DNA of 33,930 nt from Ktedonobacterales bacterium (GCA_025935195.1 JAICVS010000035.1:1-33930); one strand, 5' to 3'. Positions 5,904 through 26,671 are shown, numbered from the stretch's first letter. Notes: a model not told the origin generated them from the letters alone. Made by a program: numbers and translations.

Positions 5904-8283
<2,380 letters not shown>

Positions 8284-20346: not shown

Positions 20347-20402
20347 ATGGGAGAATCTGTATCAGTTCATGCGCGCTTTGGACAAGACACCCTGGGCGCA
20401 TC

Positions 20403-20461
20403 CGAGTCCGCGCCGGTGGATGTCGCGGCCGTCAGGCCCTCCAAGCGCGGTGTGAACCGCC
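20403..20461 (+). repeat. Three-hairpin repeat, copy A
   Basis: GTCCGC-GCCG-GTGGAT (20406-20421, G.U pairs), GGCC-GTCA-GGCC (20427-20438), GCGGT-GTGA-ACCGC (20447-20460). Confidence 0.75.
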
Positions 20462-20651
20462 GACCCGCGTCTCCACGCGCACAGTCACGGCCCTGGGCGG
20501 TTGTGCGGCAGGCTAACGTCTGGATGGTTGCGGCCAGTGTTACCATAGGGAGCATACCTGCCGGACGTTGCAACTGAAGCCAGCGCCGCCTGGCAGGGTC
20601 TTTGGTCGAGCCGCGCATCATGGGGTTGAGTGTGTGAGGGGGATATCGCTT

Positions 20652-21944
20652 ATGCATCCGCGCCTGTCTGAGCCACAGCTTGCTCACCCCAGCTTCTCTG
20701 AAAACATCGCCGGGCACGCCCCCGTTCCCGATCTGCTTGGGCAGCCAGAACGACAATCCGGCCTGTGGGACCTCTGGCTGAGCCTGACGACGCCGCGACC
20801 AACGGCCGCCCGGCTGACGGCGCGCGAGCGCGAATATCTGCGCCGCAGCCGCCTGCTCAGCACCCTGCAATTGACGGCGGTCATCCTGACGGCGCTGCTC
20901 ACGCCGCGCGGCTTCTTCCCAGTGCTCGATCCCGGCACGCTGCTCGGCGTGGCGCTCTTCGCCGCCGTGCTGCTGGTGAGCATCGTGCTGAACCGCCAGG
21001 GGCGAGTAGCGGCGGCGGCGGCGCTCTACACGATTGGGCTGGCGCTGGCAATCGCAGGCTCGCAGCTTGCCACGCCCAGCGGCAAGATCGGCTTCGAAGA
21101 CCTGGCCGGCTACGATCTGCTGGTGATCCCGCTGATCATCGCGGGCGTTCTGCTGGCGAGCCGCGTAACGGTGTTGCTCTGGGTGGCGAGCGCCGGCTTC
21201 ATCGTGCTCGACCTCGGCCTGGCAGAGCATGGCGCGAGCCTGGACACCTACCTGCCGTCCGATCTCCCCTCGTTCCTGCGCGTCTCTCCGGTGGCGATCT
21301 ATCCGCTCGTGCTGACGGCCGTCGTGGCGGTGATCTCCTGGCTGGCGGCGCGCAGCGTCGCGCGGGCGCTGGCGGAGGCCGACCGCACGGCCGACGTGGA
21401 GCGGGCGTACGCCGTGGTGGCGGAGCAGAAGCGCGCGCTCGAAGAGGCAATCGCCGCCATCCAGCAGGTGCATGCGCGCGTGGCGAACGGCGATCTGAGC
21501 GCCCGCGCGCCCACCCGGCCCGGCGACCCGCTCTTGCAGCTCGCCGTCAGCCTGAACCTGACGCTGGACCGCCTCGCCCGCACCACCCTCTCGGCGGCGA
21601 ACCTGGGCGCGCTGGAACAGGAAGTGGCCGTGTTGAGCGAGTACATCACCGATCTGGCGCGGGCCAACCTGCACCATCCGCCGCCGGCGCGGCAGTTGCG
21701 CCGGCTCGCCCCGCTCGCCTACAACCTTGAGCAACTGCGCATGGGCATCTTACAGGCCATCCAGCAGGCGCGGTCGCTGGTCGAGCGCATCGGCGCCGCG
21801 GAGGCGCGCGTGGAGCGGCAGGCGCGCCTGCTCCAGGCGCGCGAGCCGGCCGATGCGGAGATGATCGACCAGCTGCGGCAAGGGATCACGGCGGCGACGA
21901 CGGACACCACGCGCCTGCACACCTACCTGAGCCGCTTCCTGTAA
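20652..21944 (+). CDS. Multi-pass membrane protein with C-terminal HAMP-like/coiled-coil region
   Basis: About six hydrophobic segments, then VARALAEADRTADVERAYAVVAEQKRALEEAIAAIQQVHARVANGDLSARAP...; no catalytic output domain seen. Confidence 0.75.
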   Translation: MHPRLSEPQLAHPSFSENIAGHAPVPDLLGQPERQSGLWDLWLSLTTPRPTAARLTAREREYLRRSRLLSTLQLTAVILTALLTPRGFFPVLDPGTLLGVALFAAVLLVSIVLNRQGRVAAAAALYTIGLALAIAGSQLATPSGKIGFEDLAGYDLLVIPLIIAGVLLASRVTVLLWVASAGFIVLDLGLAEHGASLDTYLPSDLPSFLRVSPVAIYPLVLTAVVAVISWLAARSVARALAEADRTADVERAYAVVAEQKRALEEAIAAIQQVHARVANGDLSARAPTRPGDPLLQLAVSLNLTLDRLARTTLSAANLGALEQEVAVLSEYITDLARANLHHPPPARQLRRLAPLAYNLEQLRMGILQAIQQARSLVERIGAAEARVERQARLLQAREPADAEMIDQLRQGITAATTDTTRLHTYLSRFL

Positions 21945-22046
21945 GTTGGAGCCGCGCCTGATCCCGGCGTAGACTAGAGGTGTTGCCATTTGCCGGCGTC
22001 CCAGCATGACACTCCTTCACAAACACGACGGACACATCGCCGATTC

Positions 22047-22106
22047 TGAGTCCACGCCGGTGGACTTCGCGGCCGGAGGCCCTCCAGGCGCGGTTTGAAC
22101 CGCCGG
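22047..22106 (+). repeat. Three-hairpin repeat, copy B
   Basis: AGTCCAC-GCCG-GTGGACT (22049-22066), GGCC-GGA-GGCC (22071-22081), GCGGTT-TG-AACCGC (22090-22103). Confidence 0.85.
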
Positions 22107-22208
22107 CCGGTGCGGGCGGTGTGTCCGTCTGAAATGGGCAAACTCCATCAATCGCCGGCTATCCCGCCCGCGCGGCGCCTGCCCGGCTCTCCGAAAGGAG
22201 CGATTCCC

Positions 22209-23243
22209 ATGAGCGCGCCCGATTCACCCGATCCAGATATCCCCGCAATCGTCACGCTTCCCGCCCAGGATCGGCTGGGCGTGCTGAGCGCGACAGCGGA
22301 CGTGGTGCGCGCGACGCGGCTGGTGCGGCTCGACCACGGCGCGCTGGATGGGCTGGCGGCGCGCTGGGCGAGAGACCCCTGGCCGGAGCAGGCCGGGCTG
22401 GACGCGCTGCACTTCACGGATGGCACACCGCGCACGGCGAACTGGGTGCTGCTGCTGGACGCCCTCAACTTCTGCTTCTGGCCGGATGTGGGCGCGCCGC
22501 GCTGGCGCGTGGAGTGGCGCGGCGACTCGTACGACGGCTATGCCGCGCTGGCGGCGGCGCTGACGCGCGCGGTGGAGCAGGGGCGGCCGCTGTGGGACGC
22601 GACCTATCTGGCGCAGATTGACAGCGATGATCTACGCGACATCCTGCGCTACCCGCCGGAAGCGGCCGAGATTCCGCTGTTCGAGGCGCGGCTGGCGAAC
22701 GTGCGCGAGGTCGGGCGCGTGCTCTGCGCCACCTACGGCGCAGAGTTCACCAACGCCATCGAGAGCGTCTCAGGCAGCGCCGTGGCCCTCGCCTGGCTGC
22801 TGGCGCGCGAGTTCCCGTCCTTCCACGACGTGACACACTGGCGCGGCCAGCCGATACCCTTCCTGAAGCGCGCGCAGATCTGCGTGGCCGACCTCAACGC
22901 GGCGTTTGGCGGCGTATCGTGGGGCGCGTTCACTGACCTCGATCAGCTCACTGCCTTCGCGGACTACAAGCTGCCGCAACTGCTGCGCCATGCAGGCGCG
23001 CTGGTCTACGCGCCGGAGCTGGCCGCCAGGGTGGACGCGTACGCGCCCATCGCGGCCGGCTCCGAAGAGGAGATCGCGATTCGCGCCGCGACCGTCTGGG
23101 CAGTGGAGCTGCTACGCCGCGCGCTGGCCGAGCGCGACATCCAGCGCACACCCGCCGCGATAGACTACCGCCTCTGGGCCGAGAGCCAGACCAAAGCGCC
23201 GGACGAGCGGCCCTACCACCGCACACGCACGATGTATTACTGA
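22209..23243 (+). CDS. Queuosine 5'-phosphate N-glycosylase/hydrolase, DUF2419 (Q_salvage) family
   Basis: TANWVLLLDALNFCFWPD...WRVEWRGDSYDGYAALAAALTRAVEQG...YLAQIDSDDLRDIL...FPSFHDVT...PFLKRAQICVADLNAAFGG...DLDQLTAFADYKLPQLLRHAGALVY. Confidence 0.92.
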   Translation: MSAPDSPDPDIPAIVTLPAQDRLGVLSATADVVRATRLVRLDHGALDGLAARWARDPWPEQAGLDALHFTDGTPRTANWVLLLDALNFCFWPDVGAPRWRVEWRGDSYDGYAALAAALTRAVEQGRPLWDATYLAQIDSDDLRDILRYPPEAAEIPLFEARLANVREVGRVLCATYGAEFTNAIESVSGSAVALAWLLAREFPSFHDVTHWRGQPIPFLKRAQICVADLNAAFGGVSWGAFTDLDQLTAFADYKLPQLLRHAGALVYAPELAARVDAYAPIAAGSEEEIAIRAATVWAVELLRRALAERDIQRTPAAIDYRLWAESQTKAPDERPYHRTRTMYY

Positions 23244-23283
23244 GCAATACTCCATTTTCGTTGCCCTATGGAGGAACTGTCGT

Positions 23284-23501
23284 ATGCAGTCGCATGAGAG
23301 CTGGGAAGGCCGGCACTGTCCACTCTGCCAGGGTGAGATGAGTCCAGGGAGATGTCATCATACCGTGATATTTTCGTCACCGTACCCTCGCCGGATAGGT
23401 TGCTGTTTCCACGCTCATCGCATGTCATTGCCCAAGTATGTCTCGAATGTGGCTACATCATGCTCTTTGCGACGGACCCTGGCAAGCTGCGGCGACAGTG
23501 A
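23284..23501 (+). pseudogene. Small zinc-ribbon protein gene, apparently frameshifted
   Basis: Frame 1 MQSHESWEGRHCPLCQGEMSPG; frame 2 SSYRDIFVTVPSPDRLLFPRSSHVIAQVCLECGYIMLFATDPGKLRRQ*. The two CxxC halves lie in different frames. Confidence 0.55.
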
Positions 23502-23558
23502 GTGACAGGATTTGTGTATGATCGATACCTGGAACAACGGATCGACGCATGGGGTGGT

Positions 23559-23620
23559 CTCCCCAACCGGCGACGGCCGGTTTGGTGGCGTAGCCCTCAG
23601 GCGCGGTTTCAACCGCCGGC
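23559..23620 (+). repeat. Three-hairpin repeat, copy C
   Basis: AACCGGC-GACG-GCCGGTT (23565-23582), GGC-GTA-GCC (23587-23595), GCGGTT-TC-AACCGC (23603-23616). Confidence 0.88.
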
Positions 23621-23645
23621 CATCCCGATATATGGTGAAGGTATT

Positions 23646-24524
23646 ATGAAGCGCGTAGCGGACATCGCGGCGATTGAGCGCCGTATAGACGTGCGGCCAA
23701 TCATCAAGTGGGCGGGCGGGAAGGCGCAACTGCTCGCCGTGCTGGCGAGTCTGCTGCCGCCACGCGAGCAGATTCGCCGCTACTTCGAGCCGTTCGTAGG
23801 CGGCGCCGCGCTGTTCTTCGCGCTCCAGCATCCGTGCTCCACGCTCTCCGATACCAACGCCGAGCTGATCAACCTCTATACTGTCGTACGCGATGCGCCG
23901 GACGCGCTGATCGCGGCGCTGCGAGCGCATGCGGCCGCCCACGACGCGCCGCACTACTACGCGGTGCGGGCGCTGGCGCCGGGGAGCCTGACGGCGGTGG
24001 AGCGGGCGGCGCGGCTGATCTACCTCAACAAGACCTGCTACAACGGCCTGTACCGCGTGAACAGCCGCGGACAGTTCAACGTGCCGATCGGGCGACACAA
24101 GAGCCTCACGATCTGCGACGAGCCGAATCTGCGCGCGGCGAGCGCGGCCCTGCGGCCGGCGCGGCTGGCGCTCGGCGATTACGAAGCAGTGCTGGCGGAC
24201 GCCGGGCCAGGCGACTTCGTGTACTTCGATCCGCCGTACCACCCCAGCAGCACGACCGCGGTCTTCACCTCGTATACAGACCGCCCCTTCGACGCGCGCG
24301 AGCAAGAGCGGCTGGCGCGGGCGTTCCGGCGGCTGCATGCCGCTGGCTGCCACCTCATGCAGAGCAATTCCGACACGCCTCTCATCCGCGAGCTGTACGC
24401 GAGCTTCCGCATCGAGCGTGTGACGGCCAATCGGGCGATCAATTCACGCGCCGACCGCCGTGGCCCCGTGACAGAGCTGGTGATCCTGAACTACGCGGCG
24501 GATGGGACGCTGATCGCCGGATGA
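23646..24524 (+). CDS. D12-class (Dam-like) DNA adenine-N6 methyltransferase
   Basis: IIKWAGGKAQLLAVL...YFEPFVGGAALFFAL...LIYLNKTCYNGLYRVNSRGQFNVPIG...FVYFDPPYHPSS. Confidence 0.95.
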   Translation: MKRVADIAAIERRIDVRPIIKWAGGKAQLLAVLASLLPPREQIRRYFEPFVGGAALFFALQHPCSTLSDTNAELINLYTVVRDAPDALIAALRAHAAAHDAPHYYAVRALAPGSLTAVERAARLIYLNKTCYNGLYRVNSRGQFNVPIGRHKSLTICDEPNLRAASAALRPARLALGDYEAVLADAGPGDFVYFDPPYHPSSTTAVFTSYTDRPFDAREQERLARAFRRLHAAGCHLMQSNSDTPLIRELYASFRIERVTANRAINSRADRRGPVTELVILNYAADGTLIAG

Positions 24525-24590
24525 CGTGAGCGAATGGATGGATGGAGCGCGCCAATCACCGTGCGCTTCGCGCATGCTGGCTGGCGCGCT

Positions 24591-24648
24591 CTCCCAAACC
24601 GGCGTAGGCCGGTTTTGTGGCGTAGCCCTCAGGCGCGGTTTCAACCGC
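24591..24648 (+). repeat. Three-hairpin repeat, copy D
   Basis: AAACCGGC-GTAG-GCCGGTTT (24596-24615), GGC-GTA-GCC (24619-24627), GCGGTT-TC-AACCGC (24635-24648). Confidence 0.88.
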
Positions 24649-24717
24649 TGGCTGTTCCCCACTGGCTGTTCCCCGCTGGCTGTTCCCCACTGGCTGTTCC
24701 CCGCTGGCTGTTCCCCG
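24648..24717. repeat. 14-nt minisatellite CTGGCTGTTCCCC(A/G) x5
   Basis: Five consecutive units differing only at position 14. Confidence 0.93.
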
Positions 24718-24771
24718 CCGCGCGCCGCGAACGATCACTCGCGCATCCTGCTTTCGCCCGCACCCCACGCC

Positions 24772-24800
24772 TTGACAACTCCCATCTTTCATGGTAACTT
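24772..24800 (+). promoter_or_regulatory. Putative sigma70-type promoter TTGACA-17 nt-TAACTT
   Basis: Exact -35 consensus with 17-nt spacing to a -10-like TAACTT, upstream of the SbcD-like gene. Confidence 0.55.
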
Positions 24801-24929
24801 AGTTCTACTGCCGTGGCGCCACCCAACACCGCAAGCACCTTGAACAACCGCGTACCGTGGCAAATCCACCCATCTCATCCTGATGGCAACCGGAAAGATG
24901 GCAACATGGATGTGGTCGGAACCGCTCAC

Positions 24930-25134
24930 AACATTGCCGTTTTTGCCACCCACCGTGCCATCCGTTGCCACTTTTTGCTGCGGTGTTGCCACTTTTGCCA
25001 CCCATAACGTGAAACGTCAAGTTGTCGAATCGTGCCACACGGCTTGAATGCGGTATCCGCGAGGAGACCACCCCCGACACGCGGCCAAAAAGCGGCAAAA
25101 ACGGCAATGTTCACCACGCCAGTCAACATTGCCG
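24930..25134. repeat. Region of long inverted/direct repeats (AACATTGCCGTTTTTGCC ... GGCAAAAACGGCAATGTT ... AACATTGCCG)
   Basis: 18-nt perfect inverted repeat (24930-24947 / 25094-25111), plus a third arm at 25125-25134 complementary to 25102-25111. Confidence 0.85.
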
Positions 25135-25142
25135 CCCACCGT

Positions 25143-25208
25143 TCTCCTCAACCGACGAAGGTCGGTTTTGTGGCCTCCAGGCCTTCAGGCGCGGTTTCAA
25201 CCGCCAGC
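25143..25208 (+). repeat. Three-hairpin repeat, copy E
   Basis: AACCGAC-GAAG-GTCGGTT (25150-25167), GGCC-TCCA-GGCC (25172-25183), GCGGTT-TC-AACCGC (25191-25204). Confidence 0.88.
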
Positions 25209-25318: not shown

Positions 25319-26671
25319 ATGCGCGCCACCTTCGTCCACACCGCCGACAACCACCTCGGCTACGAGCAGTACGGCCTGAAGGAACGCTTCAACGACTTCG
25401 CCCGCGCCTTCCTCGCCGTGGTGGATGCCGCCGTCGCGCAGCGTGCCGACTGCTTCATCATCGCCGGCGACCTCTTCAACAAGCGCGCCATTGACGCCCT
25501 CACGCTGATGCAGGCGCAAGAGGGATTGCAGCGGCTCCAGGCCGCCGGCATCCCCGCCATCGCCATCGAAGGCAACCACGACCGCAGCTATTACCGCGAC
25601 GGCGTCTCGTGGCTGCAATTCCTCTGCTGGCAGAAGCTGCTGATCCTGCTCAATCCGCTGGTGGAAGACGGCGTGCCCCAGCTCACCCCCTGGGATGCCG
25701 AGGCCATGCGTGGCGCCTACTACGACCTGACCAGCGCGTCCACCGTGTCCGGCAGTGCGACCGGCGGCGAGCGGCTGCGCGTCTACGGGCTGCCGTGGTA
25801 CGGCACCAGCACAGTGCGGGTGATGGAGAACTTCGCCGGCGAGTTGGCGGCGGCGCGCGAGCGCGAGCAGGCGGAAGGTGTGACCTACCGTGTGCTGATG
25901 ATGCACACCGGCGTCGAAGGAATCGTGCCGCAGATGCACGGGCTGCCGGCGTACGAGCAGTTCCAGCCGCTGCGCGGGCTGGTGGATTACGTCGCGCTGG
26001 GGCACATCCACAAGCAGTACGTGCGCGACGAATGGCTCTACAATCCCGGCTCGACGGAGACCTGGGGTGCGGAGGAGAGCGCCTGGGAGCGCGGCTACTA
26101 CGTCGCGCGGGTGGCGACGGACGTCCCGGCGGGCGCGCCGCGGCACATCGTCGAGCATGTCATCAATCCGCGCCGGCCGTTCATCCGCCATACGCTGCGT
26201 GTAGACGGCGTGGTGGACCCGACGGCGCTGTACGAGCGGCTCGATGTGAAGGCCGCCGGCTGGGTGCGTGAGGACGTAGACAAGCTGGCCGCGTCGCCGC
26301 TGGAGCCGGTGATCGATCTCAGCCTGACGGGCGTGCTCGGCTTCGACCAGGGCGCGTATGACAAGGCACGGCTGGAAGAGATTCTGCGGCAGTACTACGA
26401 CGCGCTGACGGTGCGCATCCACGACGGCACGCGCGATACTGAGTGGGATTTGGGCGAGGAGGAGGGCGGCGACGGGCGCGACCGCTCGACCTGGCAGCAG
26501 CTCGAAGTTCACATCTTCCAGGAGCTGATCGCCCGCGACACGCGCTACACCGCCCACGCGCCCCAGTGGGCCAAGGTCTTGTCCGACCTGAAGACGATGG
26601 CCCTGGCCGGCGACGAGCCGGCCGCCATCGCGCAACACCTGCGCACGGCGCGCACCGAGCTGGCGAATTGA
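25319..26671 (+). CDS. SbcD/Mre11-family DNA exonuclease (metallophosphoesterase)
   Basis: FVHTADNHLGY...FIIAGDLFNKRA...IEGNHDRSYY...LMMHTGVEG...VALGHIHKQ...YNPGSTETW. Confidence 0.9.
   Translation: MRATFVHTADNHLGYEQYGLKERFNDFARAFLAVVDAAVAQRADCFIIAGDLFNKRAIDALTLMQAQEGLQRLQAAGIPAIAIEGNHDRSYYRDGVSWLQFLCWQKLLILLNPLVEDGVPQLTPWDAEAMRGAYYDLTSASTVSGSATGGERLRVYGLPWYGTSTVRVMENFAGELAAAREREQAEGVTYRVLMMHTGVEGIVPQMHGLPAYEQFQPLRGLVDYVALGHIHKQYVRDEWLYNPGSTETWGAEESAWERGYYVARVATDVPAGAPRHIVEHVINPRRPFIRHTLRVDGVVDPTALYERLDVKAAGWVREDVDKLAASPLEPVIDLSLTGVLGFDQGAYDKARLEEILRQYYDALTVRIHDGTRDTEWDLGEEEGGDGRDRSTWQQLEVHIFQELIARDTRYTAHAPQWAKVLSDLKTMALAGDEPAAIAQHLRTARTELAN

Follow-up and report, generated by a model that had tools for sequence, protein, structure and literature searches.

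A dispersed three-hairpin repeat of a Ktedonobacterales genome as a probable REP-like element processed by a subclass 1.2 TnpA_Y1 transposase

The subject of this study is a short repeat present in five copies (A to E, positions 20,403 to 25,208) in a 33,930-nt stretch of DNA from a Ktedonobacterales bacterium (GCA_025935195.1, JAICVS010000035.1:1-33930), referred to here as the window. The repeat belongs to a dispersed, extragenic family with discrete ends and constrained folding, which is associated across several phyla with genes for TnpA_Y1 transposases of subclass 1.2. The most probable explanation, to which we assign a probability of about 0.82, is that it is a repetitive extragenic palindrome (REP)-like, non-autonomous element of about 70 nt that works as a hairpin in single-stranded DNA (ssDNA) and is processed in trans by a subclass 1.2 TnpA_Y1, the two together constituting a REPtron. 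A first-pass annotation of the window had described five copies in the same orientation with the common layout H1, linker, H2, YTC(C)ARGC, H3, and all five were located as described, their arms being readable in the sequence. It had also proposed selection on a folded form, either RNA or an ssDNA hairpin. The ssDNA, REP-type alternative is now directly supported, because copies of the element flank a Y1 transposase gene of this genome and the orthologues of that gene in relatives, while the RNA alternative has no positive evidence beyond covariation.

Copy number, ends and placement of the element

The source assembly comprises 4.74 Mb in 277 contigs, and the H3 core GCGGTTTNAACCGC occurs in it 70 times, compared with 0 occurrences of the reversed pattern. 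A covariance model, R1, was built from 32 copies, all from the window genome, and detected at least 150 copies there (E-values from 5e-17 to 4e-6). The element is also present in relatives and, in several phyla, beside subclass 1.2 genes. Conservation starts at a pyrimidine-rich 5' edge, TCYCC, and is near zero from position -2 upstream; the 3' edge, CGGCYNGC, lies about six bases past the end of the R1 model, and the flanks beyond about +6 are unconserved. Between these edges follow H1 with a GNAG-type loop, a short linker, an optional H2, an unpaired YAG/GTAG foot and H3. The TCYCC edge could belong to the element itself or, if IS200/IS605 is taken as the model, be a fixed target on its left. 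Two copies on different contigs are identical over 65 nt and have unrelated flanks. By a crude codon-usage gene finder, 121 of the 126 copies analysed lie outside predicted genes and 5 overlap one, while 71% of random windows overlap a gene.

At the 3' end of eight copies a tandem array begins within 12 nt, compared with one copy at the 5' end. Such arrays were found at 31 of 4000 control intergenic positions, so that the 3' enrichment has a p-value of 2e-5 against the control and of 0.036 against the 5' side. The units of these tail arrays frequently include the final bases of the element, as at copy D. The arrays were rejected as a general rule, as only 8 of 126 copies have one.

A second palindromic family, GCGGCAAAAACGGCAATGTTGAC..GTCAACATTGCC, is represented in the window at 25092-25140 (+) and at about 24928-24948 (-). 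It has 291 matches in the genome at no more than one mismatch (11 for the reversed control), often as inverted pairs. At 17 of the 126 element copies it lies upstream in the same orientation, and at none downstream or reversed. This polar placement fits strand-specific insertion but could also be due to co-mobilisation. Around several copies (flanks at L013, L023, L002 and others) an outer sequence, GTTTGACGAATGAACACGGAC, recurs together with its reverse complement, as if some elements lie within a larger inverted-repeat unit. In one related genus (G002 and G010; L049, L050, L051), many copies form REPIN-like, head-to-head inverted pairs with H1 inside and a spacing of a few to tens of bases, whereas the window genome has mostly singletons.

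Folding and covariation

Covariation was measured by counting pairs and comparing the counts with shuffles and with slid-register controls. In the 32 copies, 98.4% of the cells are paired and 63 cells have both sides changed, against 24 +/- 5.5 in the shuffles; the covariation score is 0.300, against 0.015-0.099 in slid registers. The signal holds in larger alignments, both for 119 matches from the genome (96.7% of cells paired; score 0.375 against at most 0.070 when slid) and for 135 cross-phylum matches, the latter aligned by fitting to the model (98.4% of cells paired, compensatory changes at 15 of 16 pairs; score 0.395 against at most 0.066). The values of the 32 copies are far above both controls and, with those of the larger alignments, support selection on a folded form, as had been proposed.

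The variable but paired arms of H1 were also read correctly in the first pass, and H1 holds most of the compensatory changes in the genome copies (six of seven pairs, compared with one pair in H2 and two in H3). Part of the covariation is due to two subfamilies, AACC.. and AGTCC..; the further arm types AACCTGC, AACCCGC and CGCCGAC pair too. H2 has the GGCC/GGCC or GGC/GCC arms described for it, but proved to be lineage-specific and largely missing in other phyla, and RNAalifold recovered H1 and H3, not H2, from the 135-match alignment. The arms of H3 are likewise as described, but the 2-nt loop originally drawn is sterically unlikely and the realistic stem is GCGGT-TTCA-ACCGC. Nearly all of the 135 cross-phylum matches have GNAG as the H1 loop. 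The YTC(C)ARGC linker was confirmed and is the counterpart of the TAG/GTAG foot of H3 in relatives: across phyla the foot contains GTAG in 74 and TAG in 101 of the 135 matches, and in the window genome it is YCAG, with GTAG in 0 of 119.

Compensatory changes would be expected just as much if the repeats acted in mRNAs, in stability, processing, riboregulation or termination, and RNA folding drove the changes. In line with this, 38 copies in codirectional gaps run along the gene strand and 19 against it. We nevertheless hold an RNA element to be very improbable. With 17 copies in divergent and 14 in convergent gaps, many copies have no one defined mRNA position. G.T pairs are rare among the 119 matches, no T-run follows H3, and no copy coincides with a terminator-like match, the single one in the region (22026-22042; shuffled mean 2.5) lying off the hairpins of the copies. 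An Rfam scan of the window gave 0 matches at the gathering score, and the repeats are explained by neither a known transposon end nor an Rfam family. The G.U pairs of copy A, previously taken as a sign of RNA, are no evidence for it, because copy A is a decayed copy. Finally, an RNA element would leave the tight link to one transposase gene, described below, unexplained.

The transposase gene of the genome and its relatives

The first-pass annotation rightly reported no REP-associated tyrosine transposase (RAYT) or TnpA gene in the window; the transposase was missed there because it is encoded on another contig. Among the several Y1_Tnp genes of the genome, a single one is of subclass 1.2 type, an assignment made by signature motifs, length and copy number. 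This gene, C274 tnpA (L032:1435-1860, minus strand), encodes a HUH/Y1 TnpA of 141 aa and is bracketed on both sides by element copies in its own orientation, with a third, inversely oriented copy upstream. The protein carries the motifs DHVH, WQ and Y---Q--HH with intact catalytic residues, and the profile of its group matches solved IS200/IS605 TnpA structures. Full-length orthologues, 49-56% identical, were found in G002, G007 and G009 and twice in G017, and the element lies on both sides of all of them. Thus, all six full-length genes examined from the order of the window have elements on both sides.

The genome also has resident IS605-type tnpA/tnpB genes, and the ends of IS200/IS605 insertion sequences (IS) are hairpins, so the repeats might be miniature inverted-repeat transposable elements (MITEs) of ordinary IS200/IS605 elements with a subclass 1.1 TnpA. 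However, no element copy was found in the examined flanks of the genome's own IS605-type genes, and among 23 subclass 1.1-type genes of relatives element matches occur only at L067, as one pair about 1.25 kb off. In addition, genomes of family f2 are rich in subclass 1.1-type genes and have no elements, and the subclass 1.1-type and 1.2 proteins fall into separate clades with 100/100 support. We consider this origin scarcely credible, and the IS605-type genes, not being flanked by the element, were rejected as the mobiliser.

A further Y1 homologue (C225; L034:1393-1863, -) was also rejected in this role, as its conservation extends to a genome that has no elements and it is unflanked in relatives. 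Its orthologues (L079-L087), 47-79% identical, occur in almost every genome of the window's family and in two further genomes; the element-free G005 is among the genomes that have one. In the copy of the window genome the HUH motif reads PDRVYL and a Phe occupies the tyrosine position; judging by these residues, it appears to be a domesticated transposase that has lost its catalytic activity.

The element beside subclass 1.2 genes across phyla

Scanning genomes with a protein profile made from six proteins yielded 80 loci as best matches, of which 66 have both motifs and an open frame and fit the subclass 1.2 signature. A broader covariance model, R2, was built from subclass 1.2 loci, and therefore R1 alone serves as the adjacency test. 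An R1 match lies within 300 bp of 48 of the 80 loci, and on both sides at 24, with representatives in Chloroflexota, Cyanobacteria, Armatimonadota and Gemmatimonadota. The density of the element is 2.80 per kb within 200 bp of the genes and about 65-fold lower beyond 600 bp (0.00-0.12 per kb per 200-bp bin). R2 was run on 16 genomes belonging to several phyla and found 14-156 copies in 14 of them, the other two having 1 and 0; in 17 genomes where no subclass 1.2 gene had been detected it found no copies. Across 61 genomes the element and the gene co-occur (both in 6, the gene only in 1, the element only in 9, neither in 45; Fisher p = 5e-4).

Proposed mechanism and evidence against it

In the proposed system, the subclass 1.2 TnpA, an HUH/tyrosine endonuclease encoded once inside a pair of element copies, would act in trans on the dispersed copies. 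It would bind the folded strand once this becomes single-stranded, for example at replication forks, and would cleave at the element ends with the unpaired foot as a guide. The element strand would then be moved or copied strand-specifically and without target duplication. We infer that the element transposes, and H1 and H3 may correspond in function to the hairpins at the left and right ends of an IS200/IS605 element.

Several observations weigh against this interpretation. The six proteins of the search profile came from element-bearing and related lineages. At 32 of the 80 loci there is no strict R1 match within 300 bp, though weaker matches are present at many, and a truncated homologue in G019 (L054) has no flanking element. 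No subclass 1.2 gene was detected in 9 of 15 element-rich relatives, among them G003, a single-contig assembly with 73-80 copies; such genomes allow for gene loss after spread, incomplete assemblies or the action of another protein. Conversely, G051 has the gene and no element copies. Most copies are diverged (median nearest-neighbour identity 0.89), and much of the family may therefore be old. Movement itself was not observed: in an empty-site comparison within one genus nothing but the element aligned, because the flanks of the relatives are too diverged for an empty site to be demonstrated.

Some of these observations would also suit repeats that were once mobile and now have a host role, in DNA-protein binding, topology, replication or repair, with the TnpA domesticated to process them and not to move them. 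The low copy number and divergence of the transposase, the divergence of the copies, the element-rich genomes without the gene and the extragenic bias are all in agreement with such a role. On the other hand, the two identical copies in unrelated flanks suggest some recent spread, and selection against insertions would also keep copies out of genes. A host role is, in our judgement, improbable.

Beyond the REP-like, TnpA-processed element itself, we tentatively suggest, with somewhat less than even confidence, that subclass 1.2 TnpA_Y1 forms a distinct and ancient REPtron system in several phyla. The element would then be no single hairpin but a fused miniature IS200-like unit in which H1 is the left end and H3 with its GTAG foot the right end, and therefore each repeat of about 60-70 nt would by itself make a full substrate for ssDNA transposition; the tail arrays would result from repeated cuts at the 3' end. 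A literature search, with subscription journals outside its reach, found no description of a subclass 1.2-associated repeat or of this type of REPtron. The subclass 1.2 HUH proteins, which stand outside the IS and REP worlds and have no DNA partner in the published classification, gain a testable substrate in the specific, covarying repeat found beside their genes in several phyla. This repeat links REP-type with IS200-type systems and offers an explanation for many of the short extragenic repeats of Chloroflexota and Cyanobacteria, which form a large class, and the question of how REPs spread becomes testable in cultured cyanobacteria.

The five copies of the window and their neighbours

All five copies are on the plus strand. 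Copy A (20397..20463) has the lowest R1 score of the five, 58.2 bits, having lost the closing pair of H1 and acquired two G.T pairs and an altered H3 loop; it is a decayed copy, the weakest of the set, and lies where a prolyl oligopeptidase-like gene (-) and a HAMP-domain gene (+) diverge, in the intergenic gap that separates them. Copy B (22041..22106; 77.1 bits), of the AGTCCAC/GTGGACT subfamily, has the HAMP-domain gene on one side and a queuosine salvage gene on the other. Copy C (23557..23619; 76.3 bits), of the AACCGGC/GCCGGTT subfamily, precedes a D12-class adenine methyltransferase gene (start about 23647) at a short distance. In copy D (24589..24651; 76.4 bits) the arms, read from the sequence, are 24597-24603/24608-24614 for H1, with the loop GTAG, 24619-24621/24625-24627 for H2 and 24635-24639/24644-24648 for H3. 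Its tail array, about five 14-nt units (GCTGGCTGTTCCCC) at 24645..24718 (+), opens with the 3' terminal bases of the copy. Copy E (25142..25207; 80.0 bits; arms AACCGAC/GTCGGTT) directly follows, on the 3' side, a copy of the second palindromic repeat and precedes a metallophosphoesterase gene.

The latter gene occupies 25319-26671 and, if SbcD-like, would encode a nuclease acting on DNA hairpins. Elsewhere in the window, at 6764-6833, about six tandem copies of the 10-mer CCTCTGCGTC lie upstream of an enolase-type gene.

Comparison with known systems

The element resembles the REP/RAYT systems (class 2 TnpA_REP, REPtrons, REPINs) in being a short extragenic palindrome with an unpaired foot and a high copy number, in occurring as singletons and inverted dimers, and in flanking a low-copy HUH/Y1 gene. 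Like REPs it is dispersed, extragenic and numerous, while the GT[AG]G expected at the 5' foot of a REP is absent in the window genome and present in a part of the wider family. Unlike REPs, it has an additional conserved hairpin, H1, with a GNAG loop. The flanked gene is not of class 2, its motif being Y---Q--HH instead of the Y---NP of RAYTs; C274 TnpA scores 28 bits with the RAYT profile NF047646, against a cut-off of 80, and a canonical RAYT is thus excluded by both the motif and NCBIfam.

With IS200/IS605 elements (IS608, ISDra2) and their MITEs the system shares a homologous HUH/Y1 TnpA, two subterminal hairpins and a guide-like unpaired foot. It differs in having no tnpB, one gene copy and a protein in a separate clade, and in that the ends of the gene unit are complete H1-H3 repeats that also exist as many solo copies.

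The GTAG REPs of Cyanobacteria and Thermomicrobium roseum are single stem-loops of 20-40 bp mobilised by RAYTs, and GTAG-23 of T. roseum forms large blocks of clustered copies (Di Nocera et al. 2013, PMC3733652). A GTAG foot and a short stem-loop are common to them and to the present family, whose copies, in contrast to GTAG-23, are dispersed and mostly single. Compared by description, not by consensus, some of these REPs may represent the H3 part of the present family.

Subclass 1.2 of TnpA_Y1 is defined by DH[IV]H, WQ, Y---Q--HH and a low copy number, is tabulated as "REP: no", has a median length of 148 aa and was recorded chiefly from Cyanobacteria and Bacteroidetes (Quentin et al. 2018, PMC6006769). 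C274 TnpA agrees with it in every published signature motif, in its length and in its single copy, and cyanobacterial members are included among the loci found here. In contrast to the survey, the subclass 1.2 genes detected here extend to Chloroflexota, Armatimonadota, Gemmatimonadota and others and are flanked, at 48 of the 80 loci within 300 bp, by a specific repeat family, which does not agree with the tabulated lack of REPs.

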